A stretch of DNA of 64,000 nucleotides from NCBI GenBank assembly GCA_017443265.1, contig JAFSOU010000069.1:1-64000 (forward strand), read 5' to 3'. The stretch comes from Bacteroidales bacterium. Lineage in GTDB: Bacteria > Bacteroidota > Bacteroidia > Bacteroidales > P3. Under the pieces are notes generated by a model. It was not told the DNA's origin. It saw nothing but the letters and a program-made list of their open reading frames with translations, and did no database searches. The translations under genes were made by a program, and so were the position numbers. This document shows, piece by piece, positions 5,310 through 37,122 of the stretch (the stretch's first letter is position 1; the number at the start of each line of letters is the position of its first letter).

Positions 5310-8279
5310 ATGAGGACAGAGAAACAGATTGCCGCATCGGCTGCCGAATTTGCACAACGCTGGAAGGGTAGGGGTTATGAACGGGGCGAGTCGCAACCCT
5401 TTTGGATAGACTTGCTGTCGAATGTGTTCGGTATCGAAACGCCATCCGACGGTTTTATCACTTTCGAGGACCATCGTATGGTGGATTCCTCCAACTTTAT
5501 CGACGCACGTATTCCCTCCACCCGTGTGCTTATCGAGCAGAAATCGTTCGGCAAGGACTTGCGCAAGGGCATACTGCAGAGCGACGGCTCTTTGCTCAAC
5601 CCGTTCCAGCAGGCACGACGCTATGTGGTAAGTCTGCCGGTGTCGGAACATCCGCGCTGGATTGTTACCTGCAATTTCTCCGAATTTCTGATCTATGACA
5701 TGGAGCAGCCCAACGGAGAGCCCGAAAAGGTGCTTCTGGAAAATCTCGGCAAGGAGTACTACCGTCTGTTGTTCCTTGTCGATACCAAAAACGAACATCT
5801 GAGCAAGGAGATGCAGGTGTCGATGCAAGCCGGCACCATTGTGGGCAAGATTTACGACGCGTTGCTCAAGCAGTACGGCGACGGCTCGCCCGAAGCTCTG
5901 CGATGGCTCAACATATTGTGTGTGCGCATCGTTTTCTGTCTTTATGCCGAAGATGCCGGAGTGTTCACCCACGACCAGTTCCACGACTACCTTGCGCGCT
6001 ACGACGCCACCGACCTGCGCCGCGCCATGAAAGACCTTTTCGAGGTGCTCAACACCCCGATAGACCGCCGAAGCAAATACCTGCAGCCCGACCTCGCCGC
6101 CTTCCCTTACACCAACGGCGGACTCTTCGAAGAAGTAATAGAAATACCGCAGTTTACCGAGGAACTGAAGAAAACCCTGCTCGACAACGCCAGCCTCGAC
6201 TTCGACTGGAGCGAGATAAGCCCCACCATTTTCGGCGCTGTGTTCGAAAGCACCCTCAACCCCGAAACACGGCGCAGCGGAGGGATGCACTACACCTCCA
6301 TCGAAAACATACACAAGGTTATCGACCCGCTCTTTTTGAACGACCTGCGCCGCGAACTCGACACCATTCTGGAAGAAAAGGTGGAACGCCAGCGTGTGCG
6401 TCTGCTCGACGAATACCAGAACAAACTCGCTTCACTCACTTTCCTCGACCCCGCCTGCGGCAGCGGCAACTTCCTTACCGAGACCTACCTCTCGCTGCGA
6501 CGGCTGGAAAACGAGGCCATACGCGAACGCTTCCACGGACAGTCGTTCCTTGGGTTCGACGAGGCCAACCCCATAAAGGTGAGCATACACCAGTTCTACG
6601 GCATTGAGATTAACGACTTTGCCGTTACGGTGGCCACAACCGCTCTGTGGATTTCGGAGGCGCAGATGCTGGCCGAAACGGAGAAACTTATGCACCGCGA
6701 CATCGATTTCCTGCCGCTGAAAAGCTACCACAATATAAAAGAGGGCAATGCTTTGCGGATTGACTGGGCAACTTTAGAGAAAATAACAGTGCTGCCGTAT
6801 CTTTATGCGAAAAAAATAAATGTGTTTAAAGTGGATGATGTTTCCGAAAAAATACAATCGGAAGCTTCTATGGTCAGCGAACCTTCAGCAGAATATAATA
6901 AGTTATATGATGAACTGAATATTGTAACACAAGAAATAGAAGAGAAAACTTTGCCCCCAAGCCATGCTCCTAAGCCCGTGGCTTATGACTTCATCATGGG
7001 AAATCCACCGTTTGTAGGAGCACGGATGATGTCTGAGGAACAAAAGGATGACATGCTTAATATCTTTGGTAAACAATGGAAGAATATTGGTGATTTGGAC
7101 TATGTTTGTGCATGGTACAAAAAAGCTTCTGATTATTTGCAATCCAATATTAACACCAGGGTAGCCCTTGTGTCAACAAATTCAATAACCCAAGGTGCCG
7201 CAGTTTTTAATTTGTGGAAGCCATTGTTTGAAAAACTTAACATCCATTTTGATTTTGCATACCAAACTTTTAGATGGAACAGCGAAAGTAGCCAAAAAGC
7301 GGCTGTTCATTGTGTGATAATTGGATTCAGTGTTAATCAAACTAACAATCCCAAGTTGTTGTTTGGCAACAATTCTCAATATATTATAGCAAGTAATATA
7401 AACGGTTATTTGATGGACGCACCAAACATTTGGATTACAACAAGAAATGTGCCATTGTGTGGTGTTCCACCATTACTGACTGGTAGTCAACGCATAGACA
7501 ATGACTATTTTATGTTTAATGATGAGACGAAAGCTGAATTTTTGAGGAAAGAACCTAAGGCTGAAAAGTTTTTCAAAGTGTGGTATGGTGCTGACGAGTT
7601 TATCAACAATCGTCCAAGATGGGTTTTGTATTTAGGGAATTGTTCTCCTTCAGAATTGAAAGCCATGCCTCATTGTTATGAAATTGTCAAGAAAGTTCGT
7701 GATTATCGTTTGCAAAGTAAGAGAGAAGCAACAAGGAAGGCAGCTTTTAGTCCAAATCATTTTGGATTAGAGATTATTCCAGAAAAGAATTTCATTGTTG
7801 TCCCAGTCGTGAGTTCCGAGAGGCGACGCTATGTGCCAATTGGATTTATGTCACCAGAGGTGATGTGCAGCAATCAAGTGAATCTCATTCCCGATGCCAC
7901 TCTCTACCATTTCGGCGTGCTTACTTCCAATGTCCACATGGCGTGGATGCGGGCGGTGTGCGGAAGGCTGAAATCGGACTATCGCTACAGCAAGGACATA
8001 GTTTACAACAATTTCCCGTGGCCCGATGCCACAGAGGAGCAGAAAGCGAAAATCGAGGCCACGGCGCAGGCCATTCTCGACGCCCGTGCGTTGTATCCCG
8101 AAAGCTCTCTGGCCGACCTCTACGACGAACTTACCATGCCCGCCGAGCTGCGCAAGGCACATCAGGAAAACGACCGTGCCGTGATGCAGGCCTACGGCTT
8201 CCCCGTCAAGTCCACTTTCACCGAAAGTCAGTGCGTCGCCGAGCTGTTCAAAAGGTATCAGGAGCTTTGCTCCCATTGA
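5310..8279 (+). CDS. MmeI-like single-chain restriction-modification enzyme
   Basis: A 989-residue protein with the organisation of type IIL (MmeI-family) enzymes, in which one chain cuts DNA and methylates one strand for host protection. The N-terminal nuclease shows D65-(10)-E76-Q-K78, close to the MmeI D-x9-E-x-K site. A helical linker follows. The gamma-type adenine methyltransferase has motif I DPACGSGNF (380-388) and motif IV NPPF (565-568). The C-terminal part would contain the target recognition domain. Base composition falls sharply from about codon 485 to 860 and then recovers, suggesting replacement of the segment from just before motif IV through the recognition domain. No separate methylase or nuclease gene is adjacent, consistent with a stand-alone enzyme. 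The BREX PglX family is a less likely alternative. Confidence 0.85.
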   Translation: MRTEKQIAASAAEFAQRWKGRGYERGESQPFWIDLLSNVFGIETPSDGFITFEDHRMVDSSNFIDARIPSTRVLIEQKSFGKDLRKGILQSDGSLLNPFQQARRYVVSLPVSEHPRWIVTCNFSEFLIYDMEQPNGEPEKVLLENLGKEYYRLLFLVDTKNEHLSKEMQVSMQAGTIVGKIYDALLKQYGDGSPEALRWLNILCVRIVFCLYAEDAGVFTHDQFHDYLARYDATDLRRAMKDLFEVLNTPIDRRSKYLQPDLAAFPYTNGGLFEEVIEIPQFTEELKKTLLDNASLDFDWSEISPTIFGAVFESTLNPETRRSGGMHYTSIENIHKVIDPLFLNDLRRELDTILEEKVERQRVRLLDEYQNKLASLTFLDPACGSGNFLTETYLSLRRLENEAIRERFHGQSFLGFDEANPIKVSIHQFYGIEINDFAVTVATTALWISEAQMLAETEKLMHRDIDFLPLKSYHNIKEGNALRIDWATLEKITVLPYLYAKKINVFKVDDVSEKIQSEASMVSEPSAEYNKLYDELNIVTQEIEEKTLPPSHAPKPVAYDFIMGNPPFVGARMMSEEQKDDMLNIFGKQWKNIGDLDYVCAWYKKASDYLQSNINTRVALVSTNSITQGAAVFNLWKPLFEKLNIHFDFAYQTFRWNSESSQKAAVHCVIIGFSVNQTNNPKLLFGNNSQYIIASNINGYLMDAPNIWITTRNVPLCGVPPLLTGSQRIDNDYFMFNDETKAEFLRKEPKAEKFFKVWYGADEFINNRPRWVLYLGNCSPSELKAMPHCYEIVKKVRDYRLQSKREATRKAAFSPNHFGLEIIPEKNFIVVPVVSSERRRYVPIGFMSPEVMCSNQVNLIPDATLYHFGVLTSNVHMAWMRAVCGRLKSDYRYSKDIVYNNFPWPDATEEQKAKIEATAQAILDARALYPESSLADLYDELTMPAELRKAHQENDRAVMQAYGFPVKSTFTESQCVAELFKRYQELCSH

Positions 8280-23627: not shown

Positions 23628-23661
23628 AATATTGTATAACAAAAATATAGGAGTTTGTATA

Positions 23662-24762
23662 ATGGGATTTTTCAAGAAAGTAAAAGACGGTTTGCTGGGA
23701 ACCGACGGCACTGGTGGCGGCAGCGGTCAGCAAGGGGTGATAACGGCACAAGAGCTCGTAGATCAGGCATTCGAACATTTCAAGATGCGGCTGAATGATT
23801 CCTCGACCGACATGAGCCTGCTTTTCCCCACAAGCATGATAATATATCTTAATCCGGAGGACTACAACGCACGAAAACAAGAATTTCCGGCACGTGCCAA
23901 CGACATCAAGAAAAAATGCATGAAGGAGGTCCGCACCCAAATCAGCGGCAATCCCGAATGGCAGGACTACATACCACATTCCAAATACTGGAAAATACAG
24001 TTTGTTGAGTTCAAGCCAGAATGCGTGATAAGTTCCGACACCGACACACATTTCTCTGTCGAGAAAGGACATGTGATGATTGTCTCCGACCTCTATGCCA
24101 ACGATTTGGGCGAATCCATCGGCGACAGCGCATCGTCGGGCGGACGCGTGGTAACCACGGTGCACAACATAAAAGGCACCACATCTTTGCAGAACCTTGC
24201 CATCAACCCCGACGCCTTCAAAGACGTAACAATATTGGGACAGAACTGTTTCCGCATAGAGTTTTTGCGCTCCGACCTCGCCGACACCACCAAAAACAAC
24301 AAACAGTCGGCGCCTCTTCACACTCAGACTCCACCGGCCTCCAATAATTATGACATAGCCACAGGCGTTTACAATGGCAACACGTCGAAACAGTCGAATT
24401 CGACCCCAAAAAAAGTTGCCGCCGAGCTGCAGATTTGGGACAGCTATTTCCTTGTAAACGGCCAAAAAGCCGACAAATACATCATAGAATCGGAAAAATT
24501 GCAGATAGCAGGCCCCAACGCCAATGCAAGCACCGACGGAGCTGAGCTGCTTAAAATCGATGACGACAGCATAATGAACCCGCATCTGAACATAAGATAC
24601 GACAACACAAACCAACGCTACCTCATTTCGGCTGTTGGCGACACAAAGCTCAACACACGGATTCTCGAGCGCAATGCCGACAACTGGTCCGAACTGCCCA
24701 ACAACTCGACAATTCTTTTAAACGGAGATATACAATTAAATTTCACTTTGAAAAATGTTTGA
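23662..24762 (+). CDS. FHA-like protein with FhaA-type N-terminal region
   Basis: A 366-residue cytoplasmic protein. It starts with a short amphipathic GFFKKVKDGLLG helix. Residues ~25-145 (TSMIIYLNPEDYNARK, then WKIQFVEFKPE) are reminiscent of the N-terminal DUF3662 region of actinobacterial FhaA; this is inference from pattern only. After a Thr/Asn/Ser-rich linker, residues ~255-366 look like a degenerate FHA domain: it keeps a DDDSIMNPHLNI segment comparable to the SxxH strand but lacks a clear GR motif. FHA domains bind phosphothreonine. The ATG at 23662 has an AGGAG element 8 bases upstream, unusual for this genome. The gene overlaps a small membrane-peptide gene and precedes a PP2C phosphatase. 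Confidence 0.65.
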   Translation: MGFFKKVKDGLLGTDGTGGGSGQQGVITAQELVDQAFEHFKMRLNDSSTDMSLLFPTSMIIYLNPEDYNARKQEFPARANDIKKKCMKEVRTQISGNPEWQDYIPHSKYWKIQFVEFKPECVISSDTDTHFSVEKGHVMIVSDLYANDLGESIGDSASSGGRVVTTVHNIKGTTSLQNLAINPDAFKDVTILGQNCFRIEFLRSDLADTTKNNKQSAPLHTQTPPASNNYDIATGVYNGNTSKQSNSTPKKVAAELQIWDSYFLVNGQKADKYIIESEKLQIAGPNANASTDGAELLKIDDDSIMNPHLNIRYDNTNQRYLISAVGDTKLNTRILERNADNWSELPNNSTILLNGDIQLNFTLKNV

Positions 24763-24849: not shown

Positions 24850-25965
24850 ATGAAAGAGATGAAATACTACGGCGAGACCAATATGGGTATGCGCCGCACC
24901 AACAACGAAGACGCTTTCGTGGCCCAGAAAATCTGGAACGACCGATTCATACTTTGCATAGCCATCGACGGGGTGGGTGGCTACGAGGGTGGCGAAGTGG
25001 CCGCCCAAATTGCTCAAGACTATATCCCCAAACACCTTGCCAGCGTTACCAACGACAACCCTCTCGAAGCCCTGAAAGAGGCTGTTGTGGAGGCCAACAA
25101 CCGAATCTGCGCCGAACGTCAGCGCGACACTTCGCGTCCTAACATGGCATGCGTGCTCAGCGCCGGCATTATCGAACTCGACAACAACGTCATCGACATA
25201 GTGCACGTGGGCGACTCCCGTATCTACCGATACGAAAACGGCAATCTCGAAAAGATAACCCACGACCACTCGCTGGTGGGCTACCGCGAAGAAATTGGCG
25301 AACTCACCGAAGATGAGGCCATGAACCACCCGCAACGCAATATCATCGACCGACTGCTGGGCGACACTCCGCATTCCACCACCGACCGCAACTTTTTCGA
25401 GGCCGCCAAATACCCCCTCGACGAAAACACACAGCTGCTTTTCTGCTCCGACGGACTCACCGACCTCGTCACCAGCGCCGAAATACGCGAAATTCTCGAC
25501 CAGCGCATATCCATACAGGAAAAAACCAAACTGCTTATCGACAAAGCCAACGCCAAAGGCGGCAAGGACAACATCACCGTGGTGCTTGCCATTGCCGAGA
25601 ATCCCAACGCCAAACCAAAACAAGCCGTTGTGGAGCCTCCGCGCCACCAACAGGAGAACAATATTGAAGATCGGCCCGCAGAAGGCAAGAAATCGCGCAA
25701 AACGCTGTGGATATGCCTTATTGCCCTGTTGCTAATAATAGCAGCCTTTGTGGGAGGCAATTTCTTGGCTACCAAAGGCGTGGTTTGCGTGCCACAGTCG
25801 CCGTCCCCAAACAAAGAAGCAGATACCACCATACTCAAAAAAGATTTAGATTCGTTGAATGGGTTGCTGAAAGAAGCCAACGACACCATTAATGAATTAA
25901 AAGGAAGAATAGAGGATGCGCGAAACTCCTTGTCGAATCCCCCAAAACACATAGCAAAACACTAA
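24850..25965 (+). CDS. membrane-anchored PP2C-type Ser/Thr phosphatase
   Basis: Metal-dependent protein phosphatase of 371 residues, similar in layout to PstP/Stp1. The catalytic domain (about 5-250) has the metal ligands and motifs in order: RRTNNEDAF (Asp21), IDGVGGYEGGE (Asp40, Gly41), VGDSRIYRY, CSDGLTD (Asp201) and GGKDNITV (Asp240). A basic, glutamine-rich linker leads to one transmembrane helix at about 286-308 and a ~60-residue extracytoplasmic coiled-coil-like tail. It would remove phosphates from Ser/Thr kinase targets, including the two kinases encoded downstream. The extracytoplasmic tail distinguishes it from soluble PP2Cs and resembles the anchored actinobacterial form. Confidence 0.92.
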   Translation: MKEMKYYGETNMGMRRTNNEDAFVAQKIWNDRFILCIAIDGVGGYEGGEVAAQIAQDYIPKHLASVTNDNPLEALKEAVVEANNRICAERQRDTSRPNMACVLSAGIIELDNNVIDIVHVGDSRIYRYENGNLEKITHDHSLVGYREEIGELTEDEAMNHPQRNIIDRLLGDTPHSTTDRNFFEAAKYPLDENTQLLFCSDGLTDLVTSAEIREILDQRISIQEKTKLLIDKANAKGGKDNITVVLAIAENPNAKPKQAVVEPPRHQQENNIEDRPAEGKKSRKTLWICLIALLLIIAAFVGGNFLATKGVVCVPQSPSPNKEADTTILKKDLDSLNGLLKEANDTINELKGRIEDARNSLSNPPKHIAKH

Positions 25966-26057
25966 AAAAAAAACAAACGCAAAAATACAAAAACTCTGAC
26001 ACATCAGTAGAATAAAGTGAGCCAGAAGGTTGATAGTTTATTTCCAAAATTTACGGA

Positions 26058-29000
26058 ATGATGAAACGTAAAAACAACGGTTTTATACCACTTCTATTTG
26101 TAACCATAGTCCTATGCTTCGGTTTTATCACACTATACCACAACCAAAGCGCCTTTCTGAAAACGGTAGATGAGAACTACAAGACAAAACGTTCCGTCAA
26201 CTTGGAAAAAGGACTTCCGGCCACGGTGCTTAGCGAATTCCTTGTCAATCAGGACTATGTGAGCGACCGTCGCGACGCCGATTTCATTGCCAAACAGCTG
26301 ACCTCAAAAATAGACAGCGGCTACGCTCTGCCCAACCTCGGCGCCATCAACACCAGCCTATACAAGGTGCGTGCCTCGCTGGCCGACTCGCTGGGAGGAG
26401 CCCTTTTCCGAAGCCGTTGCATGGCATCCCGCGAAACCCTTGGCCTTGACCAAAACGTGCGGGCTCTCTACGCCAACCCAGGACTGCTGAAAACCGACAC
26501 TTTCCCGCACAGCGCAGGCAACAAAGAGCTGAAAGTAAAAGTGTTCCAAACAGACACTACCAACACTTTCTTTAACAGATTGCGAAAAAAAGTAGGCAAG
26601 CCAAAGAAAAAACCTGCCGCAGGAGTGCTTGTGTGCCTGCGTCAGCACGAGCTGGTGTATGCAAAACAAATAACCATCGACGGCAAGGACACCAACGTCA
26701 GATACACCGACACCACGGCACACGACACCGTTGTGGAATACGCTTTCACAAACAAAGAAGGGGAGGTGTCGTTCAAAATCTACGACAGCCTCAACTACAG
26801 CGTGTTGCCCGTAAAAGCAGGCTTCAACTACGGCTCGCCGAAAGGCACTTTGAAAAACAAAAAATTCGTTTTCACCGAAAGTCCTGACAAGATAAAACTT
26901 TTCGACACATACACCTACAAACGCCTCAAAGACGACGGGGCACTGACGGTGCGCACACCTAAGACCTACCGCAACTATCTGATTATCGCCTTTTTGCTAT
27001 TTGTGGCCATGTGGTGGCTGCTCTACGGCTTTGTATTGGCGCGCGACCGCAACACCAAACGCCAGAGCGACACCCTTATTATGGCTCTGCTGATGACCCT
27101 TACAGGCTTGGGACTGCTGTCGAAATTCGCGCTTGTCAATCCCGTTTCCGACAAATTGTTGGGCTGGGATACGCTCGTTGGCACCGTAATTGGCCTTGTG
27201 GCGATGATATTGATAGCCCGTTTCGATATGGTTAAGTTCTACAACAGCGGTATGCGGATTTTAGGTGTTTCGGTGGATTTCGATTTCGTGATGCAGTTTT
27301 TCCGCTGGTGCGGACTGCCTTTCGGCAAAAAATTGGACAATTTCAGCAACGACATACAGCGTCGTACACGCAACAGTTCCCTGCAGCTGTTCTGCAAACT
27401 GCTGTTTCTGTTGGTTCTGTTTTTCCTGCTGCCGGTTATTCTGCTTGTCAAACTGATAACATTTGTTTGTTCCAAAATTCCCAAAATCAGGGATTTAAGC
27501 GTGCCTCACGGTTTTGGTTATATGTTGCTGGCGTTGGCTTTGCTGGTGCTTCTGTTTTTCTTCGGTTCAGGCCCCGAAGGCAGCAACGCCAAGGTTAACC
27601 TCGGCCCGATACAGGTGAGCGAGCTGGCCAAACTGCTTACGATGTTCTTTGTGGCGGCTTTCTTCGCCGAGAACTCCGACACCCTTCAGGCTTTCGCCGA
27701 CAAGCAGTCCATTTTCGGGATGCGTCAGGTGAAACTGGTGCTTTTCATCCTTGCCTTTATGGTTGTGATGATGGGCGTTGCCGTGATGCTGAGCGACATG
27801 GGTCCCGCCATAGTGGTGATACTCTCGTTTATACTCATCTACAGCGTTGCCCGTCGCGACACAGTGCAGATGTTTATCGGCGTGGTTACCTTTATAGCAA
27901 TGCTTTTCCTTGCCTATCTGTTCAACCATTCCATAGGACTGATGGCCGTGGCCGCACTGGTGTGGCTTGTGGCGTGGGTAGCAATTAGTTGGACTCGCGG
28001 CAAACGCATCTACGAAAGTGCCGTTTTCTTCAACCTCATCATAGTGGCCTTCCTGTTCGGCGGTCCTTTGCTCGACACCCTTGGTTTCCACAACGAGGCC
28101 GAGCGTCTTACAAGCCGCAACGAAATGGTTTGGAGCGGTGTTTGGAACAACGATGTCAAAGGCGGCGACCAAGTGGCGCAAGGCTACTGGGCATTGGCCA
28201 GCGGCGGTTTATCCGGTCAGGGCTTGGGCAGCGGCCATGCAAGTGTGGTGCCCGCCTGCCATACCGATATGATTTTCACCAGCATAGGCGAGGAAATGGG
28301 TTGGATAACCCTTTTGCTGATAGTGCTTTGCATGGCGCTTTTGGTACACCGCGGACTGCTTATAGCACGCAAGGCGGGCAACCGTTTCGCTTTCTTCCTT
28401 GTGGCAGGTCTGGCCACGGTTACAGGCATACAGTTCCTTGTTATAATTTTAGGCAGTCTCGGACTTATACCGCTAACAGGCGTGGCGGTGCCGTTCCTGA
28501 GCTACGGCAAGTCGAGCATTGTGGTCAATATGATTGCCTTCGGGTTCATACTCTCGCTTTCGCGCGAAAAAGCCACCGAGCGTCAGGCGGAATATATACG
28601 CAGCAAATACGACGGCATCATAGCCGCCGGCAGCGCATCGTTCATAGCCGTGGGATTATTCATTGTCTGCTGGCTGTTCGCCTACCAGTTCTTCGCACGC
28701 GACAACACCCTTATCCGTCCCGCCTTTGTCACCAACAACCAAGGAGCCCGTGTGGCCGAGTACAACCCACGCATCGACATACTGATGCGAAAACTCGCCG
28801 CAGGCAACATCTACGACCGCAACGGCGTTGTGCTTGCCACCAGCGTGGACAGCATACTTGACAACAAAATGGTCGTGGATAAAATTGTGGAAGCCGGTAT
28901 CTCGGCCGAAGATGTGAAAAAAGCGCACCGTTACCCCAAGATGAGGTACTATCCTTTCGGCGACCAGATGTTCTTTATGTTGGGCGATTTCAACACAAAG

Positions 29001-30470
29001 GTGCTGTGGGGCAGCCACGACGACAATCCCTACGGCTACATGGCCGAAAGCCGTCATCTGGCAATGCTGCGCGGTTTCGACAACATAGCCCGCGACGAAT
29101 ACGGGAAACCCCGCAGAGACGTGCTAAGGGCGCGCAACTATATCTACAGTCCTTACCTTGCCGAACGCGGAGAGAAAGAGTTCCGCTACACACGCTACGA
29201 CTATTCGGCGCTTCTGCCCATGCTAAAAGCCGGCACCGAAAGCCGCAAGGTGCGCCAGTGGAACGAAAAACGTCCCGAACGCGACATACGACTGACCATC
29301 GACGCCAAACTGCAGGTGCGTATGCAGAACGCCCTTCAACAGTTCGCCGACACGCGCAAAAACAACTATATGCGTGTGTCCGTTGTGGTACTCGACGCCG
29401 CAAAGGGCGACCTGCTGTGCTCGGCAAACTACCCGTTGCCCAACCAGGACACACTTGTGGCAAAGAGCCGACTGCCATATTACAGCGACAACTTCAAAGA
29501 TTTCAAAGCCTATACCGACCGCGACCTTGGCACCACTTACCAGACCCAACCCGGTTCCACGGTCAAAGTGATGTCGGCTATGGCTGGATTTATGAAATTA
29601 GGCTCCGAAGCCACAGGCAAGTCATATATGGTGTATAGCGAGGAGAAAATCGACACCAAGCTTGGCGAGCCTACAGGAAATGTCAATCTTCACTCAGCCA
29701 TAGTGCAGTCGTCGAACTGCTATTTCGTAAATTCGGTGAACGACCAAAACTTATATACACAGCTCGGCGAGATATACAAAGCCACCGGCGTGCGTATCGA
29801 CCGCGAGGCCATCGACAAACGCGGACGCACTGTCATCGACAAATCGCTGACACCATATTTCTTCTACACCAGCAATATGTCTGACACAACCGTGTTCAAC
29901 GCCGAGGTGTCGGCCACCAGCCAACGCGGCACACATAAGTACAACAACTATATCGAACGACGCTCAAAAAAACAGCAATACGAAAAAATGAACTGGAGCC
30001 ATTGTGCTTGGGCGTGGGGACAGGGCACTTTGCGCGCCACACCTCTCAATATGGCACGTGTGGCTTCTATTGTGGTAAACAATGGCACTCTGGCACAGAC
30101 TCGTTACCTGTACAACGATTCGCTTCCACAAACCAATGTGTGCCCCAATTCGCTCGAACAGCTCAAATCGTATATGAAAGACCAAGCAAAGCTGAAAGCC
30201 GGAATCTCAAATCCCGCTATCGGCGGAAAAACCGGCACACCTGAACGTTCTCACGTTGTTCGCAACAGCAAAGGCAGAAAGGTGAAAACCAGCAAAAACG
30301 ACGCTTGGTACATCTTCTTCGTCGATAGCGACGGCGTAAAACAAAACAAAGCCAGCAAACTAGCCGTGGCAGTACGTATCGAAAGAGCTAACTCCACGTC
30401 GAGCCTCGCTATGCAACTATCACGCACTCAGGTTATTCCAATTCTTACAGAAACGGGATACATGAATTAA
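26058..30470 (+). CDS. fused SEDS glycan polymerase and class B penicillin-binding protein
   Basis: A single uninterrupted 1470-residue frame. One transmembrane helix (about 8-26) leads into a ~275-residue predicted periplasmic domain that I do not recognise. Residues ~305-860 form a polytopic SEDS (RodA/FtsW) domain with SELAKLLTMFF, LSDMGPA, candidate catalytic aspartates in NNDVKGGD, YWALASGGLSGQGLG and TDMIFTSIGEEMGW. A further helix (about 865-885) joins to a PBP2/PbpA-like transpeptidase with Y-D-R-N-G-V-V-L-A, and all three active-site motifs: Ser1167-T-V-Lys1170, S1218-S-N1220 and K1391-T-G1393. It therefore could both polymerise and cross-link peptidoglycan. The usual arrangement is two separate interacting proteins. 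It sits between the phosphatase and a second FHA gene. Confidence 0.9.
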   Translation: MMKRKNNGFIPLLFVTIVLCFGFITLYHNQSAFLKTVDENYKTKRSVNLEKGLPATVLSEFLVNQDYVSDRRDADFIAKQLTSKIDSGYALPNLGAINTSLYKVRASLADSLGGALFRSRCMASRETLGLDQNVRALYANPGLLKTDTFPHSAGNKELKVKVFQTDTTNTFFNRLRKKVGKPKKKPAAGVLVCLRQHELVYAKQITIDGKDTNVRYTDTTAHDTVVEYAFTNKEGEVSFKIYDSLNYSVLPVKAGFNYGSPKGTLKNKKFVFTESPDKIKLFDTYTYKRLKDDGALTVRTPKTYRNYLIIAFLLFVAMWWLLYGFVLARDRNTKRQSDTLIMALLMTLTGLGLLSKFALVNPVSDKLLGWDTLVGTVIGLVAMILIARFDMVKFYNSGMRILGVSVDFDFVMQFFRWCGLPFGKKLDNFSNDIQRRTRNSSLQLFCKLLFLLVLFFLLPVILLVKLITFVCSKIPKIRDLSVPHGFGYMLLALALLVLLFFFGSGPEGSNAKVNLGPIQVSELAKLLTMFFVAAFFAENSDTLQAFADKQSIFGMRQVKLVLFILAFMVVMMGVAVMLSDMGPAIVVILSFILIYSVARRDTVQMFIGVVTFIAMLFLAYLFNHSIGLMAVAALVWLVAWVAISWTRGKRIYESAVFFNLIIVAFLFGGPLLDTLGFHNEAERLTSRNEMVWSGVWNNDVKGGDQVAQGYWALASGGLSGQGLGSGHASVVPACHTDMIFTSIGEEMGWITLLLIVLCMALLVHRGLLIARKAGNRFAFFLVAGLATVTGIQFLVIILGSLGLIPLTGVAVPFLSYGKSSIVVNMIAFGFILSLSREKATERQAEYIRSKYDGIIAAGSASFIAVGLFIVCWLFAYQFFARDNTLIRPAFVTNNQGARVAEYNPRIDILMRKLAAGNIYDRNGVVLATSVDSILDNKMVVDKIVEAGISAEDVKKAHRYPKMRYYPFGDQMFFMLGDFNTKVLWGSHDDNPYGYMAESRHLAMLRGFDNIARDEYGKPRRDVLRARNYIYSPYLAERGEKEFRYTRYDYSALLPMLKAGTESRKVRQWNEKRPERDIRLTIDAKLQVRMQNALQQFADTRKNNYMRVSVVVLDAAKGDLLCSANYPLPNQDTLVAKSRLPYYSDNFKDFKAYTDRDLGTTYQTQPGSTVKVMSAMAGFMKLGSEATGKSYMVYSEEKIDTKLGEPTGNVNLHSAIVQSSNCYFVNSVNDQNLYTQLGEIYKATGVRIDREAIDKRGRTVIDKSLTPYFFYTSNMSDTTVFNAEVSATSQRGTHKYNNYIERRSKKQQYEKMNWSHCAWAWGQGTLRATPLNMARVASIVVNNGTLAQTRYLYNDSLPQTNVCPNSLEQLKSYMKDQAKLKAGISNPAIGGKTGTPERSHVVRNSKGRKVKTSKNDAWYIFFVDSDGVKQNKASKLAVAVRIERANSTSSLAMQLSRTQVIPILTETGYMN

Positions 30471-30471
30471 G

Positions 30472-30589
30472 TTGAAAATTGAAAGTTGAAAATTGAAAGA
30501 TATAGGTCAAAAGTCTAAAGTCAAATGTCAAAGGACTAGTGACCATTGACCGAAGACAAATTACTAATCACTAATCACAAATCACTAAA
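30472..30589. repeat. intergenic degenerate repeats
   Basis: The gap before the second FHA gene consists of TTGAAAATTGAAAG phrases, then AGTCTAAAGTCAAATGTCAAAG, then ACTAATCACTAATCACAAATCACTAA. The last is the reverse complement of the phrase near 5015-5058. No promoter box was found here, so the gene downstream is probably read from upstream. Confidence 0.65.
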
Positions 30590-30593
30590 AAAT

Positions 30594-31658
30594 ATGAGCA
30601 CCTTTTTTGACAAAATAAAGAAATTCCTTAACCCCACCGACGAGCCGGAGGTGGAACAAAGCTCGGCAAACGTTGACACCCGTGAAACAAAAAACGAGGC
30701 TCAGCCTGCCAAACAGAACGCCACACCCGTGGAAACGCCGAAAAACGACACCCAATATGCGCCAGCTGAACCTGCTGAACCAGAACCAGTTGCAACTGCC
30801 GAAAATATAGAAAAGAGTGGGGTGGAGGAAACTCCGAAAAACGACACCCAACAACCTTCATCCACCACAGAGGCAAAGTCGGAACAACAACAGCAAACCG
30901 CACCGCAGAGCGCCCCCGCTGGCCCGAAAACCGACGAAGTGTCGGCACCGCAAATAAGGGCATCGGTGATAAAAAATGTAGTACAGATGCTAAAACCCCT
31001 GCTGGGCAAGGACGATTTCAAAGGCATCGCTTTCTATGTGGAACAGCACAACTACGCTCTGACTTTGGACAAGGAGTTTGAAAAACTGCTCCGTATCCAA
31101 TTCGACGACATGGGGTTCAGATCGCTCGGCAGCGGTAAAATAGAAGTGTTTGAAAGACCGTCGTCGGCCGACGCCCACAATGTGTACCGCGACATAATCT
31201 TCGCCGAAATCATCACCAAAGAATCCAACATACACCACGCACCGCGCAAGGCACGCATAACTGTTTTCCGTGGCAAAGGCAGCCTGAAACAAACGGAATA
31301 TATCCTCGACACCGCCGTTGACAACAAAAAAGTGTATTGTATCGGACGTGGCGAAATAAGCACCAAAGGCGGAGTGTTCCGCGACAACGACATTGTGATA
31401 AACGAAGCCGAACCCGATCCCGCCATCGCCAACCTCAACAACTACGTGAGCAGCTCCCATGCCAATATCGAAGTGCGCGACGGCGGTTTCTATCTTAAAG
31501 CCATGCAGGGCGGCATAGCTAACGGCAACGCCACCAAGTATATCCGCGACGGCAAGGTGTTCAAACTCGAGACCGACTCGATGTCGTACCCCCTTCGCGA
31601 CGGCGACCTTATCGAACTCGGACGCTCCGTGCTGCTTAAATTCGAAATTCTTATGTAA
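30594..31658 (+). CDS. FHA domain protein with Pro/Glu-rich linker
   Basis: A 354-residue cytoplasmic protein. The N-terminus (STFFDKIKKFLN) is an amphipathic helix like that of the first FHA gene of the locus. Residues ~20-130 are low-complexity, rich in Pro, Glu, Thr and Gln, and include the octamer ETPKNDTQ twice. A globular middle domain (about 135-240) is followed by an FHA domain (about 245-354) with the diagnostic IGRGEIS, YVSSSHANIEV and LRDGDLIELG strands. It should bind phosphothreonine peptides made by the downstream kinases. The start is the ATG preceding STFFD; an upstream in-frame TTG falls in repeat sequence. The next gene begins 15 bases after its stop. Confidence 0.87.
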   Translation: MSTFFDKIKKFLNPTDEPEVEQSSANVDTRETKNEAQPAKQNATPVETPKNDTQYAPAEPAEPEPVATAENIEKSGVEETPKNDTQQPSSTTEAKSEQQQQTAPQSAPAGPKTDEVSAPQIRASVIKNVVQMLKPLLGKDDFKGIAFYVEQHNYALTLDKEFEKLLRIQFDDMGFRSLGSGKIEVFERPSSADAHNVYRDIIFAEIITKESNIHHAPRKARITVFRGKGSLKQTEYILDTAVDNKKVYCIGRGEISTKGGVFRDNDIVINEAEPDPAIANLNNYVSSSHANIEVRDGGFYLKAMQGGIANGNATKYIRDGKVFKLETDSMSYPLRDGDLIELGRSVLLKFEILM

Positions 31659-31673
31659 CAACAATCGCAAGTC

Positions 31674-32447
31674 ATGAAAAAAATACGTTTATTCGCCCTT
31701 TTGGCCGCAATACCTTTGGTAATGCATGCCCAAGGCCCCAAGCCGATAGTCAACGACACCGTTTGGGTGCGGGGCATTCCCATTGTGTTGGTCAAAATCG
31801 ACGCCGGCACGTTCCAGATGGGTGCCACCACGGAGCAGAGCGTGGCAGCCAGCCGCGATGAGAAACCCGTTCACAGCGTAACCCTCGGCAGTTATATGAT
31901 AATGCAGACCGAAGTAACGCAGGAGCTATGGCAGACCATAATGGACAACAACCCAAGCCCGTTGAAAGGCAGCAACAGGCCCGTGCACAACGTCAGCTGG
32001 TACGACTGCATGGAGTTTATCGAAATGCTTAACGCCGTAAGCGGACGCCAATTCCGTCTGCCCACCGAAGCCGAATGGGAGTACGCCGCTCGTGGCGCCG
32101 AACGCAGCAAAGGCTATAAATTCTCCGGCAGCAACAACGCTGAAAAAGTGGCGTGGAACGCCGAAACCCTCGGTGGCGCCGAGCTTTATTACGTACAGCA
32201 GAAAATGCCCAACGAACTCGGTATCTTCGATATGAGCGGCAACGTGTGGGAGTGGTGTTCCGACATCTACGGGGCCTATTCCGACAAGGCACAGACCAAC
32301 CCCGCCGGTGCCGAAGCAGGGGAGAACCGCGTGCTGCGCGGTGGCAGCTGGCAGACACCACGCAACAAATGCCGCGTAAGCTGCCGTACCAACGCCATAC
32401 CCTACGAACGCCGCGAAGAATACGGATTCAGACTGGTGCTGGAATAG
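31674..32447 (+). CDS. exported SUMF1/FGE-fold protein, probably non-catalytic
   Basis: A 257-residue protein with a signal peptide (cleavage after H-A-Q near residue 20) and a formylglycine-generating-enzyme-like fold: GTFQMGA, EVTQELWQ, PVHNVSWYDCMEF, RLPTEAEWEYAARG, GNVWEWCSD and RVLRGGSW. The paired cysteines that form the catalytic site of true FGEs, expected shortly after RGGSW, are not in the usual arrangement here (the segment reads WQTPRNKCRVSC), so formylglycine formation is doubtful. In Bacteroidota this fold often serves as a structural or binding module. It lies 15 bases after the FHA gene and 58 before the kinase gene, so it is probably part of the same operon, acting on the periplasmic side. 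Confidence 0.87.
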   Translation: MKKIRLFALLAAIPLVMHAQGPKPIVNDTVWVRGIPIVLVKIDAGTFQMGATTEQSVAASRDEKPVHSVTLGSYMIMQTEVTQELWQTIMDNNPSPLKGSNRPVHNVSWYDCMEFIEMLNAVSGRQFRLPTEAEWEYAARGAERSKGYKFSGSNNAEKVAWNAETLGGAELYYVQQKMPNELGIFDMSGNVWEWCSDIYGAYSDKAQTNPAGAEAGENRVLRGGSWQTPRNKCRVSCRTNAIPYERREEYGFRLVLE

Positions 32448-32505
32448 TTGAAATTGAAAGTTGAAAATTAGATTATTACTAATTGCTAACTACTAATTAA
32501 AAAAC

Positions 32506-34803
32506 ATGGCTTCGATAAACGACGAATACGAAAAACTGATGCTGATAGGGCAGGGGAGTTTTGCCAGCATCTGGAAAGTGCGCCACCGCAAATACGGCTA
32601 CATCCGCACACTTAAGATACTCAACACCCCCGTACAGGACGAAAACGACCATGCCTACCAGCAGTTCGTAAAGGAATGCACCGTGCTGCTGAATATCGGC
32701 AACGGTGCCAACTACAACATTGTGCACATATACCAGCCGCGGCTTATCGACAACCGTGCTGTGGTGGAGATGGACTTTATCGACGGCGAGACACTCGACC
32801 AGTACCTGAGGCGCAACAAGTTTATGCCCATCGACGAGGTGATGCGCTTTATCGGCGACATAGGCGGGGCTTTGGCATACTGCCACCACGACATATACAA
32901 ATACATGATGAATCCCAACGAGGACGACCTCAAGTCGGACCCAGACGACGGCCGACGCTACATCATCGACGAAGCCACCGAACAACGTTTGGTGCGGAAA
33001 TACTCCGTAACCCACAACGACCTGCACAGCAACAATGTGATGCGCCGCGAAAACGACGGCAGCTACGTGCTATTGGATTTCGGCTTGGCCATACAAAATG
33101 GCACAGCAGTGAAATCCAGCGCAATGCGTGGTGGAGCTTTGGAGTATATGGCTCCCGAAAAGTTCGACGACAACAACGTTATCACCACCCAGAGCGACAT
33201 CTACAGCTTTGGCATACTTATGTACGAAGCCCTTGCCGGACGAGTGCCCTTCGAAATCGATAAAAAACGCCTTTCCAGCAACCCCGTTATGGCGCAATAC
33301 GAAATAATGCAGCAGCATAAAACGGGCATACCGCCCGAAATAGAGCCCCTGCGCCGCGAGGCTTTCGAGGCCGCAAACCCCGGACAGGAGTATGTGAAGG
33401 ACTTCCCCGACTGGCTGGAGCAGATGATAATGCGCTGCCTCGAAAAAGACCCCGCCCGCCGCTACACCGACGCCAAGGAACTTATGAATGAGTTTTATAG
33501 TAATAGGCGTGTGTTTGTTGATGAAAACTCGTTATCTGAAAGAGTTAATACACAATTAGACAATAACAATTACGATGTTTTTATTTCGTTTTCGACCCAA
33601 GATAGCGTTATCGTTGACAAAATATGCAATTATTTGGAAAAGACTGGGTTGAGATGTTTTGTATGTACTAGGGACATACCAAAGAGTGTTGTTTGGGCTG
33701 AGGCTATCACAGAAGCTATAGAAAATTGTAAGATGTTTCTTGCTGTTTTTTCCAAGCATTTCGATGATTCCAAGCAAACAGACCGAGAATTGGAACTCGC
33801 TTCGGAAGCTGCCCTACCAATAATTTGTTGCCGGATAACAAATGATGAAATGACTGGCGCAACAAAATATTATTTAAAAAATATCAATTGGATTGATGCC
33901 TATACTGATACTGAAGCTGGATTTTGCAAAATACTAGCTGAAATACAACGCATTAATGGTGAAAATTTTGTAAAAGACAAACCACAGCCAACGGATTTTA
34001 GTCTTGTGTCCTGCCCCGGCTGTGGCAAAATGATAAGCAAAGAGGCATCGTTCTGTCAATATTGCGGTTCCCATCTACATTCATCCGACGGCAACAAGCA
34101 GGTGAAATGCAACGGCTGTGGCAATTTGATAAGCAGTGATGACAAAGAATGTCCATATTGCGGCTATCCGGATTGTACACAGGAATCAAAACAAGGAGTC
34201 CGCAAGACACCAGATTCAACACAAAGTGTCAGCGGCAAGAAAAAATCCAAAAAATGGGTTGTTTGGCTGGTGCTTGGCATTGTCTTGACAGTGCTTGCGA
34301 TAATAGGCGTGGGGATAGCTTTGTTAGATAATAATGTACCAGAAGAGTGGACTGAAACTGAAGAAGCTAGTGATACTTTGGAATTCGTTGACCTTGGTCT
34401 GCCCAGCGGAACAAAATGGAGCAACATTAATCAGACAAACCCCAACGACAGTTACGATTTCTACACCTACGACGAGGCAGTGCAGCAGTTTGGCGACCAA
34501 CTGCCCACAAAAGCGCAGTTCGAAGAACTAAAAGAAAAGTGCGTCATAGTATGGGACGAATCTGCTCGTGGTGCTCGTGGCTGTAGGTTTTATGGCCCCA
34601 ACAACAACAGCATTTTTATTCCCTACGCGGGCTACCGCGATTGCAATGGCGGTGTGAACGGCGTGGGTTCCAGCGGCAACTATTGGTCGTCCACGCCCGG
34701 CGTTTCGGAGCTCGCGTGGAACCTCTACTTCTATTCGGGCGAAGTGTACGTGAACGGCAACTCTCGGTGCTGCGGGCAGTCCGTGCGCCTCGTCCAAGAT
34801 TAG
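32506..34803 (+). CDS. Ser/Thr kinase with TIR, zinc-ribbon and lectin-like domains
   Basis: A 765-residue multidomain protein. Residues 1-325 are a Hanks-type kinase: GQGSFASIW loop, Lys37, THNDLHSNNV (Asp172, Asn in place of the HRD arginine), DFG 191-193 and GGALEYMAPEKF, plus a ~35-residue insertion before the catalytic loop. Residues ~356-485 are a TIR domain (YDVFISFSTQD, CFVCTRDI, DRELELASE). Two four-cysteine zinc ribbons follow (about 503-522 and 535-553), then one transmembrane helix (about 583-606) and an extracytoplasmic C-type-lectin-like module (about 624-765, starting VDLGLPSGTKW and ending QSVRLV) of a kind common in Bacteroidota. The TIR-coding part is visibly richer in A+T than the kinase part. 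The kinase half is a close paralogue of the next gene. Confidence 0.88.
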   Translation: MASINDEYEKLMLIGQGSFASIWKVRHRKYGYIRTLKILNTPVQDENDHAYQQFVKECTVLLNIGNGANYNIVHIYQPRLIDNRAVVEMDFIDGETLDQYLRRNKFMPIDEVMRFIGDIGGALAYCHHDIYKYMMNPNEDDLKSDPDDGRRYIIDEATEQRLVRKYSVTHNDLHSNNVMRRENDGSYVLLDFGLAIQNGTAVKSSAMRGGALEYMAPEKFDDNNVITTQSDIYSFGILMYEALAGRVPFEIDKKRLSSNPVMAQYEIMQQHKTGIPPEIEPLRREAFEAANPGQEYVKDFPDWLEQMIMRCLEKDPARRYTDAKELMNEFYSNRRVFVDENSLSERVNTQLDNNNYDVFISFSTQDSVIVDKICNYLEKTGLRCFVCTRDIPKSVVWAEAITEAIENCKMFLAVFSKHFDDSKQTDRELELASEAALPIICCRITNDEMTGATKYYLKNINWIDAYTDTEAGFCKILAEIQRINGENFVKDKPQPTDFSLVSCPGCGKMISKEASFCQYCGSHLHSSDGNKQVKCNGCGNLISSDDKECPYCGYPDCTQESKQGVRKTPDSTQSVSGKKKSKKWVVWLVLGIVLTVLAIIGVGIALLDNNVPEEWTETEEASDTLEFVDLGLPSGTKWSNINQTNPNDSYDFYTYDEAVQQFGDQLPTKAQFEELKEKCVIVWDESARGARGCRFYGPNNNSIFIPYAGYRDCNGGVNGVGSSGNYWSSTPGVSELAWNLYFYSGEVYVNGNSRCCGQSVRLVQD

Positions 34804-34845
34804 ATGGCCGTGCGCGCCAGAGCACGGACAAAAGGCATCAACATT

Positions 34846-34883
34846 TGTAAAGGCTGTTCGGGCTCTGCCCGGCAGTCTTTACA
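34846..34883 (+). other. imperfect long hairpin after kinase gene
   Basis: TGTAAAG at 34846-34852 pairs with CTTTACA at 34877-34883, and the interior also pairs (CTG/CAG, CGGGC/GCCCG) around a TCT loop. It follows a smaller CGTGC/GCACG hairpin (34809-34826). The 34804-35169 gap contains no gene; it holds these hairpins, a terminator, a long palindrome and the promoter box of the next kinase. Confidence 0.6.
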
Positions 34884-34897
34884 TATAAATATCAAAT

Positions 34898-34920
34898 AAC
34901 GCCGTTCCGGCGTTTTTTTT
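34898..34920 (+). terminator. rho-independent terminator
   Basis: A 7-bp stem (AACGCCG with CGGCGTT, loop TTC) followed by eight T. It ends the transcript of the first kinase gene, so the second kinase needs its own promoter. Confidence 0.85.
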
Positions 34921-34949
34921 ATCCCGTTTCATCCCAATTCCGTCCCCCG

Positions 34950-34985
34950 GGGTGTAGAGACGTTTCCTGAAACGTCTCTACACCC
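34950..34985. repeat. 17-bp perfect inverted repeat (REP-like palindrome)
   Basis: The arms 34950-34966 and 34969-34985 are perfect reverse complements (GGGTGTAGAGACGTTTC and its partner), separated only by CT. There is no T-run, so it is not a simple terminator. From memory, palindromes with a GTAGAGACG core occur as dispersed repeats in several bacterial phyla; only one copy is seen in this window. Confidence 0.75.
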
Positions 34986-35096
34986 ACCCACAAAAAAATC
35001 GCGCCAAATGTATTAAAACAAAAGCGTAATATCCTAGCAATCCCGTTTCAAAAAAATGTATCGTTGCACAATTCACTTTTTTTTCGTAAATTTGCA

Positions 35097-35104
35097 ACGC
35101 ATTT
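35097..35104 (+). promoter_or_regulatory. -7 box TAAATTTG for second kinase
   Basis: Exact TAnnTTTG match about 65 bases before the second kinase start, after a T-run (TTTTTTTTCG) of the type that precedes several promoter boxes in this window. A -33 element is not clear. Confidence 0.65.
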
Positions 35105-35169
35105 TGCGGCAAGAAAAAAACACACACAACCCTCGCAAATGCCCATAGACAAACGAAAAACAACAGGAT

Positions 35170-37122
35170 ATGTCCTTTTTGAACAAATACGAAAAACTCC
35201 AGCTGATAGGCAAAGGCAGCTTCGCCACCATCTGGAAAGTGCGTCATGAGAAGTACGGATACATCCGCGCTTTGAAAGTCTCCAACGAGATGGTTGAAGA
35301 TGAGAACGACCCCGCCTACCAGTCGTTCCTCAACGAGTGCAAGGTGCTTCTTAAAATAGGCAACGGTTCGCATCCCAACATCGTGCATATCTACCAGCCC
35401 GACCTTATCGACAACCGTGCCGTGGTGGAGATGGACTACGTGGAGGGCGAAACAATGGAGAAATACCTCTCCCGCGTCAAATTCGTTCCCATCGACGAAT
35501 TTTACCGTTTTTTCGACGAGATTGTCGGCGCTTTGGCATATTGCCACCACGACATCTACCGTTTCCTTATGGACCCCAACGTCGATGACCTCGTTACCGA
35601 CCCCAACGACGGACAAAAATACATCATCGACGAAGCCACCGAACGCCGCCTTGTTGAGAAATACGGCGTCACCCACAACGACATACACTCCAACAACGTA
35701 ATGCGCCGCAGCTACGACGGCAATTTCATACTCCTCGACTTCGGCTTGGCCATTCAGGACGGCAAGGCCGTGAAAAGCAGCTCGCGAAGGGGAGGGGCTC
35801 TGGAATATATGTCGCCCGAAAAGTTCGACGACAGCAGCATAATCACCACACAGTCCGATATTTACAGTCTCGGTGTGCTGTTGTACGAAGTCCTTGCCGG
35901 ACGTGTGCCGTTCCAGATGGACCCCAAACGCTATTCGAGCAACCCCACCGCCGCCGGATACGAGATTATGACAGCCCACAAAACTGCCGTGCCGCCTCCC
36001 ATAGAACCCCTGCGCCGCGAGGCTTTCGAAAAAGCCCATCCAGGCGAGACATACGTCAAAGACTATCCCGACTGGCTTGAAGATTTGATAACCCGTTGTC
36101 TGGAAAAAAATCCCGCCAACCGTTTTGCCGACGCCAAACAGCTTCTCGACGAATACAAAGCCAAGAAAGCACTGGGAAACGACACGGTCTCTTCCCGCAC
36201 TTTCCCCACAAGCGCTCCGGCACCGAAAATCGAAGAGCCTGTCGAAAACAAACTCTCCGACACAACAATTCCCACACCTCCTCCAATGCCTCCGCGACCG
36301 GGTGCAAGGACCAACCCTCCCGTAACGCCACCCCCGCAAAGAGTTACACCTCCTACCAAAAAGAAAAAGTCACACGCTGGTCTGATCGTATTTCTGATAC
36401 TGCTGTTTTTGGCACTGTTGGGAGTAGGCGGTTATTTCGCTTACCAGTGGTACGAAGATTCGCAGTACGCACATTATTATACATACGTATCGAGCCTTAA
36501 CCTGCGCTCGTCGCAGAGTTCAAAAAGCAAGAGCAACATAATAGAAGCTCTGCCTTATGGCACAAAACTTTCCATGCTGTCGTACGGCAACGACTGGTGC
36601 GAGGTGAAAGCCAAAACCAGCAACGGTAAGCAAACAGGCTATGTGTCAACCGATTACATCCTTTCCGAGGACGATTACTACCTGCTTGACGGCATTTTCG
36701 GCAACAGCGAAGCGCGCGAAATGATTGCCGAAAAGCGTTGCCGCAAGGCGCTTCTCAACTATTTTAAAGAAAATAACTACCGTGGCGAACTCAACAACGA
36801 TGTGTATAGCGCACAAGAGCAGTTCTCCGACACCCGTCAGATTTGGCAGGTTTCGTGCTATAGCAGCAAAAGCTCATACAACTCGGTGTATTACTGCAAA
36901 GAGTACGAAAAAAATTCCAAATATAATGATATGATTGTGATAATCAGCCGCATACAGAATGGCATAACCACAGAGCGCAAATTGGTTTATTTCTATTTCG
37001 ACTCCGAAGGCAAGCCATATGTAGTGCACGAGGAAGTGCCCGATTCCGACAGGATAAAAAGTGTTTCCGTAACCACAAGTTGGTGGACCGGCAATAAAAC
37101 TTTCGATATCGAATATTATTAA
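35170..37122 (+). CDS. transmembrane Ser/Thr kinase with SH3b sensor
   Basis: A 650-residue kinase with PknB-like topology. The kinase domain (1-325) closely parallels that of the preceding kinase gene: GKGSFATIW, Lys36, THNDIHSNNV (Asp171), DFG at 190-192, GGALEYMSPEKF, and the same ~35-residue insertion before the catalytic loop. A Pro-rich linker (about 345-400) leads to one transmembrane helix (about 404-425). Outside the membrane, residues ~437-495 resemble a bacterial SH3 domain (YVSSLNLRSSQSS, NDWCEVKA, TGYVSTDYI), a fold often binding peptidoglycan, followed by a ~150-residue domain I do not recognise. Where PknB has PASTA repeats this protein has SH3b, suggesting wall sensing. It is transcribed separately from the preceding kinase. 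Confidence 0.88.
   Translation: MSFLNKYEKLQLIGKGSFATIWKVRHEKYGYIRALKVSNEMVEDENDPAYQSFLNECKVLLKIGNGSHPNIVHIYQPDLIDNRAVVEMDYVEGETMEKYLSRVKFVPIDEFYRFFDEIVGALAYCHHDIYRFLMDPNVDDLVTDPNDGQKYIIDEATERRLVEKYGVTHNDIHSNNVMRRSYDGNFILLDFGLAIQDGKAVKSSSRRGGALEYMSPEKFDDSSIITTQSDIYSLGVLLYEVLAGRVPFQMDPKRYSSNPTAAGYEIMTAHKTAVPPPIEPLRREAFEKAHPGETYVKDYPDWLEDLITRCLEKNPANRFADAKQLLDEYKAKKALGNDTVSSRTFPTSAPAPKIEEPVENKLSDTTIPTPPPMPPRPGARTNPPVTPPPQRVTPPTKKKKSHAGLIVFLILLFLALLGVGGYFAYQWYEDSQYAHYYTYVSSLNLRSSQSSKSKSNIIEALPYGTKLSMLSYGNDWCEVKAKTSNGKQTGYVSTDYILSEDDYYLLDGIFGNSEAREMIAEKRCRKALLNYFKENNYRGELNNDVYSAQEQFSDTRQIWQVSCYSSKSSYNSVYYCKEYEKNSKYNDMIVIISRIQNGITTERKLVYFYFDSEGKPYVVHEEVPDSDRIKSVSVTTSWWTGNKTFDIEYY

Follow-up and report, generated by a model that had tools for sequence, protein, structure and literature searches.

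The window analysed here is a 64,000-nucleotide stretch of a Bacteroidales genome (assembly GCA_017443265.1, contig JAFSOU010000069.1, positions 1 to 64,000, forward strand). It carries at 32506-34803 a gene, hereafter K1, whose product joins a Hanks-type kinase, a TIR domain, two zinc ribbons, a membrane helix and a C-terminal FISUMP domain. Comparison of its 3' end with a template located on another contig of the same genome indicates that K1 is very probably a target of a diversity-generating retroelement (DGR). We propose, with a probability of about 0.55, that K1 is a hypervariable periplasmic sensor driving both kinase and TIR outputs. The sequence itself shows the order of the domains, the targeting of K1 by the DGR, the preserved catalytic residues and the mosaic make-up of the gene; ligand sensing, coupling between the kinase and the TIR domain, NAD+ cleavage and a defensive role are inferences. 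The K1 reading frame runs open and uninterrupted from ATG to TAG over 765 codons, and its features are the following:

32506-34803, + strand: K1, kinase-TIR-zinc ribbon-zinc ribbon-transmembrane-FISUMP protein, 765 residues (intact open reading frame, Pfam)
32506-33495, + strand: Hanks-type kinase domain, residues 1-330 (Pfam, paralogue alignment, motifs K37, D172, N177, D191)
33520-33975, + strand: TIR domain, residues 339-490, with E428 at 33787-33789 (Pfam, alignment, AlphaFold, composition)
34012-34164, + strand: two CxxC-CxxC zinc ribbons, residues 503-521 and 535-553 (Pfam Zn_ribbon_3)
34237-34326, + strand: KKKSKK positive patch and membrane helix, residues 578-607, N-in/C-out (hydrophobicity)
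34381-34800, + strand: predicted extracytoplasmic FISUMP domain (Fib_succ_major / Lcl_C, C-type-lectin fold), residues 626-765 (Pfam, predicted structure)
34627-34798, + strand: very probable DGR variable region (VR) covering residues 708-764 (its template lies on contig C77 of this genome)
34799-34890, + strand: 3' flank of the VR, common with the cis VR of the DGR (identity, folds)

Contig C77 of this genome (G000) contains, in this order, a cis VR forming the 3' end of another FISUMP gene, a template repeat (TR, about 672-857) and a reverse transcriptase (RT) gene (868-2013). The RT, of 381 residues, displays the motifs GMPIGDLTSQ (GxxxSQ motif) and YVDDF, shares 29% identity with BPP-1 brt (E 5e-26), resembles other phage RTs and matches PHROG 1423 at 1e-88, and we class it on these motifs and matches as a DGR-type enzyme. 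The K1 VR is 85% identical to the TR, and its mismatches affect 23 of the 49 template adenines versus 3 of the 123 other positions (Fisher p=4e-12), a bias that none of 200,000 permutations equalled. Template adenines were replaced by G (13 changes), T (7) or C (3). The pattern runs one way, since none of the 26 adenines present in the VR core differs from the TR. Mismatches at template adenines thus make up 23 of the 26 in the core (88%), above the 75% or more reported across DGR clades by Roux et al.

The VR lies near the 3' end of K1 (34627-34798, for a gene ending at 34803), within the domain predicted to adopt a C-type-lectin fold. DNA identity between K1 and the cis-target gene is 83% inside the VR but only 49% immediately upstream of it, and the GC content at third codon positions (GC3) rises to 0.81 in the VR, both as expected for a copied-in stretch. 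Read in frame, the TR offers 26 variable codons, 19 of which are AAY, no stop can arise, and about 10^26.7 protein variants are accessible. Downstream of the VR, the 34799-34890 flank is 74% identical to positions 309-395 of C77, with a hairpin (CCGTGC/GCACGG at K1, CCGCGC/GCGCGG at the cis VR) followed by a terminator-like hairpin; this compensated 6-bp stem, which may belong to an IMH-like 3' end, is found at two VRs but is not present at every target. The same adenine-directed signature was observed for the cis VR (23/49 template adenines versus 1/136 elsewhere, p=9e-15), for a VR on contig C7 (29/47 versus 3/129, p=1e-17) and for one on C80 (28/47 versus 8/134). Judging from these comparisons, the DGR most likely acts on K1 in trans, from C77.

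The VRs on C7, C80 and C77 (L053, L134 and L055) are further strong VRs of the C77 DGR in this genome, and in the C7 target the FISUMP domain is preceded by a signal peptide and a long N-terminal region. A long Ig/fibronectin-like repeat protein (L137, contig C45, about 41047) also ends with a FISUMP-type domain, in which the VR match is limited to 33 bp. At least 17 FISUMP matches were counted in this genome, and a contig scan for relatives returned only FISUMP relatives, from rumen metagenome-assembled genomes (MAGs). Three contigs break inside FISUMP genes, so that this repeat family is probably a cause of the fragmented assembly.

The domain list of the preliminary description, made from the sequence alone, was confirmed throughout by Pfam, motifs and hydrophobicity. 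Pfam detects the kinase at 1.4e-36, TIR_2 at 2.1e-19 (residues 358-476) and Zn_ribbon_3 at 1.3e-10 in two stretches (residues about 500-554). One strongly hydrophobic segment, residues 584-607, contains the only 19-mer over threshold and is preceded by KKKSKK. By the positive-inside rule, the kinase, TIR domain and zinc ribbons would be cytoplasmic and the lectin-fold domain periplasmic, a predicted topology that agrees with the sensor-outside, effectors-inside layout first suggested.

Fib_succ_major and Lcl_C match the C-terminus weakly in Pfam (E about 0.02). The AlphaFold model of this 140-residue domain has a predicted local distance difference test (pLDDT) score of 92.3, and its first Foldseek match is the C-terminal domain of Legionella Lcl. 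After VIA realignment, C-type-lectin domains made up almost the whole of the top 50, at middling Z values of 5.8-8.7. The lectin-like fold assigned at the outset is thus retained by the model, while the "extracytoplasmic" placement is narrowed to a domain facing the periplasm and not necessarily the outside world. The idea of an ordinary lectin was dropped once the DGR template was found. The interpretation given in that description is partly supported, with NAD+ cleavage, control of the TIR by the kinase and the sensing of phage or wall as its hypothetical elements. It had overlooked that the gene is a recent mosaic insertion and that the ectodomain is a DGR variable region, which turns a receptor for a single ligand into one whose specificity would be rewritten by retro-mutagenesis.

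The TIR domain contains CFVCTRDI at 384-391 and DRELELASE at 426-434. The preliminary description would have been undermined by the loss of active-site residues; the alignment shows instead that E428 falls in a nearly invariant column, at least 90% Glu among related TIRs, and we take this residue to be equivalent to the catalytic Glu E642 of SARM1. The AlphaFold model (pLDDT 87.7) gives as best VIA match the SPARTA TIR-APAZ chain 8i87_G (Z 19.4, root-mean-square deviation 2.0 Å over 131 residues), with Z of 18-19 for SPARTA TIRs and about 17 for SARM1. The K1 TIR is thus closest in its modelled fold to the NAD+-hydrolysing SPARTA and SARM1 TIRs, with which it shares the fold (VIA Z 16-19) and the position of the conserved Glu. 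Unlike K1, these NADases contain neither a membrane sensor nor a kinase, and NADase activity is for K1 a prediction. K1 scores below the curated NCBIfam defence-TIR models (Retron_TIR, 28 bits versus 600; Thoeris III ThcB4, 18 versus 220), and its PADLOC match to ThsB is weak.

Within the order, relatives of the K1 TIR share 24-39% identity with it and, in all open frames read, have the TIR N-terminal and no kinase upstream. Bacteroidales TIR-transmembrane-FGE and TIR-FISUMP proteins (L108, L122, L047) resemble K1 in joining a TIR to an FGE or FISUMP domain of C-type-lectin fold, some via a membrane helix, but their TIR is N-terminal and they have no kinase. One such locus (L047, genome G025, contig C122, 5033-8216) holds adjoining TIR-FGE and TIR-coiled coil-FISUMP genes, showing that the joining of TIR and lectin fold recurs in the family. 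The only other TIR of the K1 genome at the cut-off used belongs to a 398-residue TIR-transmembrane protein of unrelated architecture (L045, contig C68, 4223-5419).

All kinase motifs are complete, namely the G-loop (14-25), K37, E57, HND172LHSNN177, D191FG and APE218. The domain aligns at 65-70% identity with seven paralogues, it shares 69% identity with the kinase of the downstream neighbour, K2, and the family is confined to this genus among 81 genomes of the taxonomic family, at the cut-off used. Its members carry interchangeable tails: SH3, coiled coil-transmembrane, MORN, zinc ribbon-FISUMP and zinc ribbon-transmembrane-FISUMP. K1 is not identified as a PASTA kinase of the PknB/Stk1 type, with 123 bits against a cut-off of 450 for NCBIfam PknB_PASTA_kin and no PASTA domain in Pfam. 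A duplication of K2 is not favoured as its source, because the kinase tree places K1 with the dispersed paralogues of contigs C98 and C115 and not with K2, with moderate support (87/93). The C98 paralogue (L043, 7007-8743), a kinase with a coiled coil, a membrane helix and a MORN-like tail, is another tail swap and has an FGE-like gene in the same orientation as its neighbour (5469-7004).

K1 is embedded in an operon (24850-37122) of which the other genes are the following:

24850-25965, + strand: Stp1-like PP2C (Pfam, NCBIfam, synteny)
26058-30470, + strand: FtsW/RodA-PBP transpeptidase fusion, 1470 residues (Pfam, NCBIfam, synteny)
30546-31658, + strand: FHA protein (Pfam, NCBIfam, synteny)
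31674-32447, + strand: FGE-sulfatase-like protein, upstream neighbour of K1 (Pfam PF03781, 1.4e-46)
35170-37122, + strand: K2, kinase-transmembrane-SH3 paralogue, downstream neighbour of K1 (Pfam; orthologues in L038 and L039)

The PP2C / FtsW-PBP / FHA / FGE / kinase-SH3 order is kept in sister genomes, where the FGE-like neighbour is syntenic and 76-95% identical. We take this operon to be a Bacteroidales counterpart, in layout, of the actinobacterial pstP-rodA-pbpA-fha-pkn loci. At the K1 site, sister genome G002 has nothing between the FGE and kinase-SH3 genes, and G003 has only a small soluble zinc ribbon-FISUMP gene. These comparisons point to K1 as a lineage-specific, recent mosaic insertion between the two genes. 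Compared with a TIR-less kinase-zinc ribbon-transmembrane-FISUMP chain of G003, the stretch linking kinase and membrane helix in K1 contains two inserted modules, a TIR and a second zinc ribbon. The TIR was probably acquired and spliced into such a scaffold, because its GC3 is 0.28 versus 0.72 in the kinase. As regards its source, no DNA match to the TIR segment was found in phages, and plasmids gave a single protein match, at 27%. An assembly chimera is unlikely, both flanks being syntenic with two sister genomes and all seams being in frame. The combination had been called unusual at first sight, and the searches bear this out: 393 genomes of the order and 395 of the phylum yielded no other kinase-TIR fusion, a sampled absence rather than a proof of uniqueness.

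The sensor that we propose could work as follows. Mutagenic retrohoming from C77 would replace residues 708-764 with a copy of the TR in which adenines are randomised, and a matching periplasmic ligand would bind the variable face of K1. Binding would cluster or reorient the chain, clustered kinases would trans-phosphorylate and the cytoplasmic kinase would become active, while TIR-TIR association would allow the TIR enzyme to cleave NAD+ or make a nucleotide signal. TIR enzymes are generally switched on by oligomerisation, in agreement with such a clustering-driven coupling of kinase and TIR. A sensor role also fits published proposals in which lectin domains mutated by DGRs sense ligands or antigens (PMC7517822, PMC10907252). 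K1 may be maintained as a permanently variable sensor for molecules that cannot be predicted in advance. A bolder version, which we consider unlikely, makes K1 a single-chain, membrane-spanning and anticipatory immune receptor of a gut Bacteroidales. Its variable periplasmic ectodomain would control the kinase together with a TIR that cleaves NAD+, and through a connection to the wall operon the recognition of an invader at the envelope would lead both to a reprogrammed wall synthesis and to NAD+-based abortive infection.

Several observations weigh against the proposed sensor. The TIR could serve as a scaffold. Three mismatches of the VR core, clustered at residues 732-733, are at non-adenines. 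The TR and RT are on a separate contig from K1 in a draft MAG, and K1 is carried by a single genome. Finally, no accessory gene of the Avd type lies between the VR and the TR on C77, a contig that begins inside the cis target.

The chief rival is that K1, although a DGR target, is mainly an envelope regulator that tunes peptidoglycan synthesis by phosphorylation, as K2 and the PP2C, FHA and FtsW-PBP proteins of the operon would do, with a variable domain reading wall or surface glycans and a TIR acting as an oligomerisation adaptor. This is possible, if less than likely: it is in line with the location of K1 inside the conserved PP2C / FtsW-PBP / FHA / FGE / kinase operon, with the likeness of that operon to the actinobacterial loci and with the kinase family that K1 and K2 have in common, but the operon works without K1 in the two sister species that lack it at this site, the kinase groups with the dispersed paralogues and not with K2, and the TIR retains its catalytic Glu. 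We regard as improbable a second alternative, that recombination between dispersed FISUMP genes, paralogous kinases and a TIR acquired from elsewhere has recently produced K1 as a mostly passive mosaic, with no selected combined function. The sharp composition seams (GC3 0.72 in the kinase, 0.28 in the TIR, 0.81 in the VR), the many tail-swapped kinases of the genus, the numerous FISUMP matches of this genome and the occurrence of the kinase-TIR fusion in one species only would all suit it; however, every seam is in frame across 765 codons, the catalytic and zinc residues are all kept, and the VR shows adenine-directed mutations and no stops. Finally, ordinary FISUMP paralogy in place of retrohoming is disfavoured and very improbable, for although FISUMP copies are numerous and older ones are also adenine-skewed (C40, 22/47 versus 16/123; C120, 28/49 versus 32/133), non-adenine mismatches amount to 2.4% in the K1 VR core versus 13-24% in C40 and C120, the changes are directional, similarity falls at the boundary of the VR, and the TR adjoins a bona fide RT.

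DGR-diversified kinase proteins and DGR-diversified TIR proteins are both already known. In the part of the cyanobacterial study considered here (Vallota-Eastman et al. 2020, PMC7517822), kinase-C-type lectin proteins are the commonest multidomain DGR targets and TIR-like domains are rarer. As in K1, a Ser/Thr kinase is N-terminal to the DGR-mutated lectin domain and remote (trans) targets are dispersed in the genome; unlike K1, these targets are mostly predicted to be cytosolic, and that part does not describe a kinase and a TIR in one chain, which K1 combines with zinc ribbons and a membrane helix. For multicellular bacteria, the portion of Dore et al. 2024 (PMC10907252) used here reports in Thiohalocapsa one DGR target with CHAT and TIR, and Pkinase and transmembrane parts among target domains. 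These putative antigen sensors, interpreted as sensors of pathogens, resemble K1 in their TIR/CHAT, Pkinase, STAND or transmembrane parts and in the prediction of both periplasmic and cytoplasmic sensors. K1 differs from what that portion describes in lacking STAND NTPase, MoxR and vWA genes among its scanned neighbours, in being hosted by a small-genome rumen Bacteroidales, and in uniting kinase and TIR in one polypeptide; our scan found no STAND, MoxR or vWA in K1 or in nine neighbour proteins (17.8-37.1 kb), the neighbours on C77 lying outside it. Fib_succ_major and DUF1566 (now Lcl_C), the variable-domain families of K1, are already established for human microbiomes as variable domains of DGRs (Ye 2014, PMC4159848), with no kinase or TIR fusion described in the sections compared. 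What is new in K1 is thus that a single membrane-spanning protein of a Bacteroidales unites a kinase with a TIR and is supplied in trans by a DGR, with the proviso that the supplementary tables of these studies, outside our comparison, may hold a precedent.

Bacteria have many fixed immune sensors, but few ways are known in which they produce receptors in anticipation of new ligands. In K1, a mutagenic retroelement would supply variable tips to a transmembrane chain with two signalling outputs, a kinase and a TIR, which resembles animal Toll-like and lectin receptors in layout only. The genus provides natural controls, with the kinase scaffold with and without TIR, the operon with an empty site, and several VRs from one template. 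What cellular DGRs sense is a long-standing question, made testable here by comparing VR sequences and signalling outputs.

In the sister genomes, a contig of G003 (L041, C96, 7956-9770) encodes a kinase-zinc ribbon-transmembrane-FISUMP protein without TIR, whose VR differs from the G000 template at 24/47 adenines versus 17/132 other positions; it is a second putative DGR-linked receptor kinase in the genus. Neither the RTs of G002 nor those of G003 match that of C77, from which we take the DGR cassette to be unassembled or absent there. Genome G001 carries a cassette of its own, whose RT is 45% identical to that of C77 and whose TR shows no adenine bias against the G000 TR, as expected between two templates. 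In this related cassette (L138, contig C4), with a TR and an RT bearing GLPIGNLTSQ, a 179-residue open reading frame directly upstream of the TR could encode an accessory protein. Finally, within the window, a 376-residue protein encoded at 23632-24762, between the glycosyltransferase and PP2C genes, gave no Pfam, NCBIfam or PADLOC match, and it is syntenic and 74% identical in G002.
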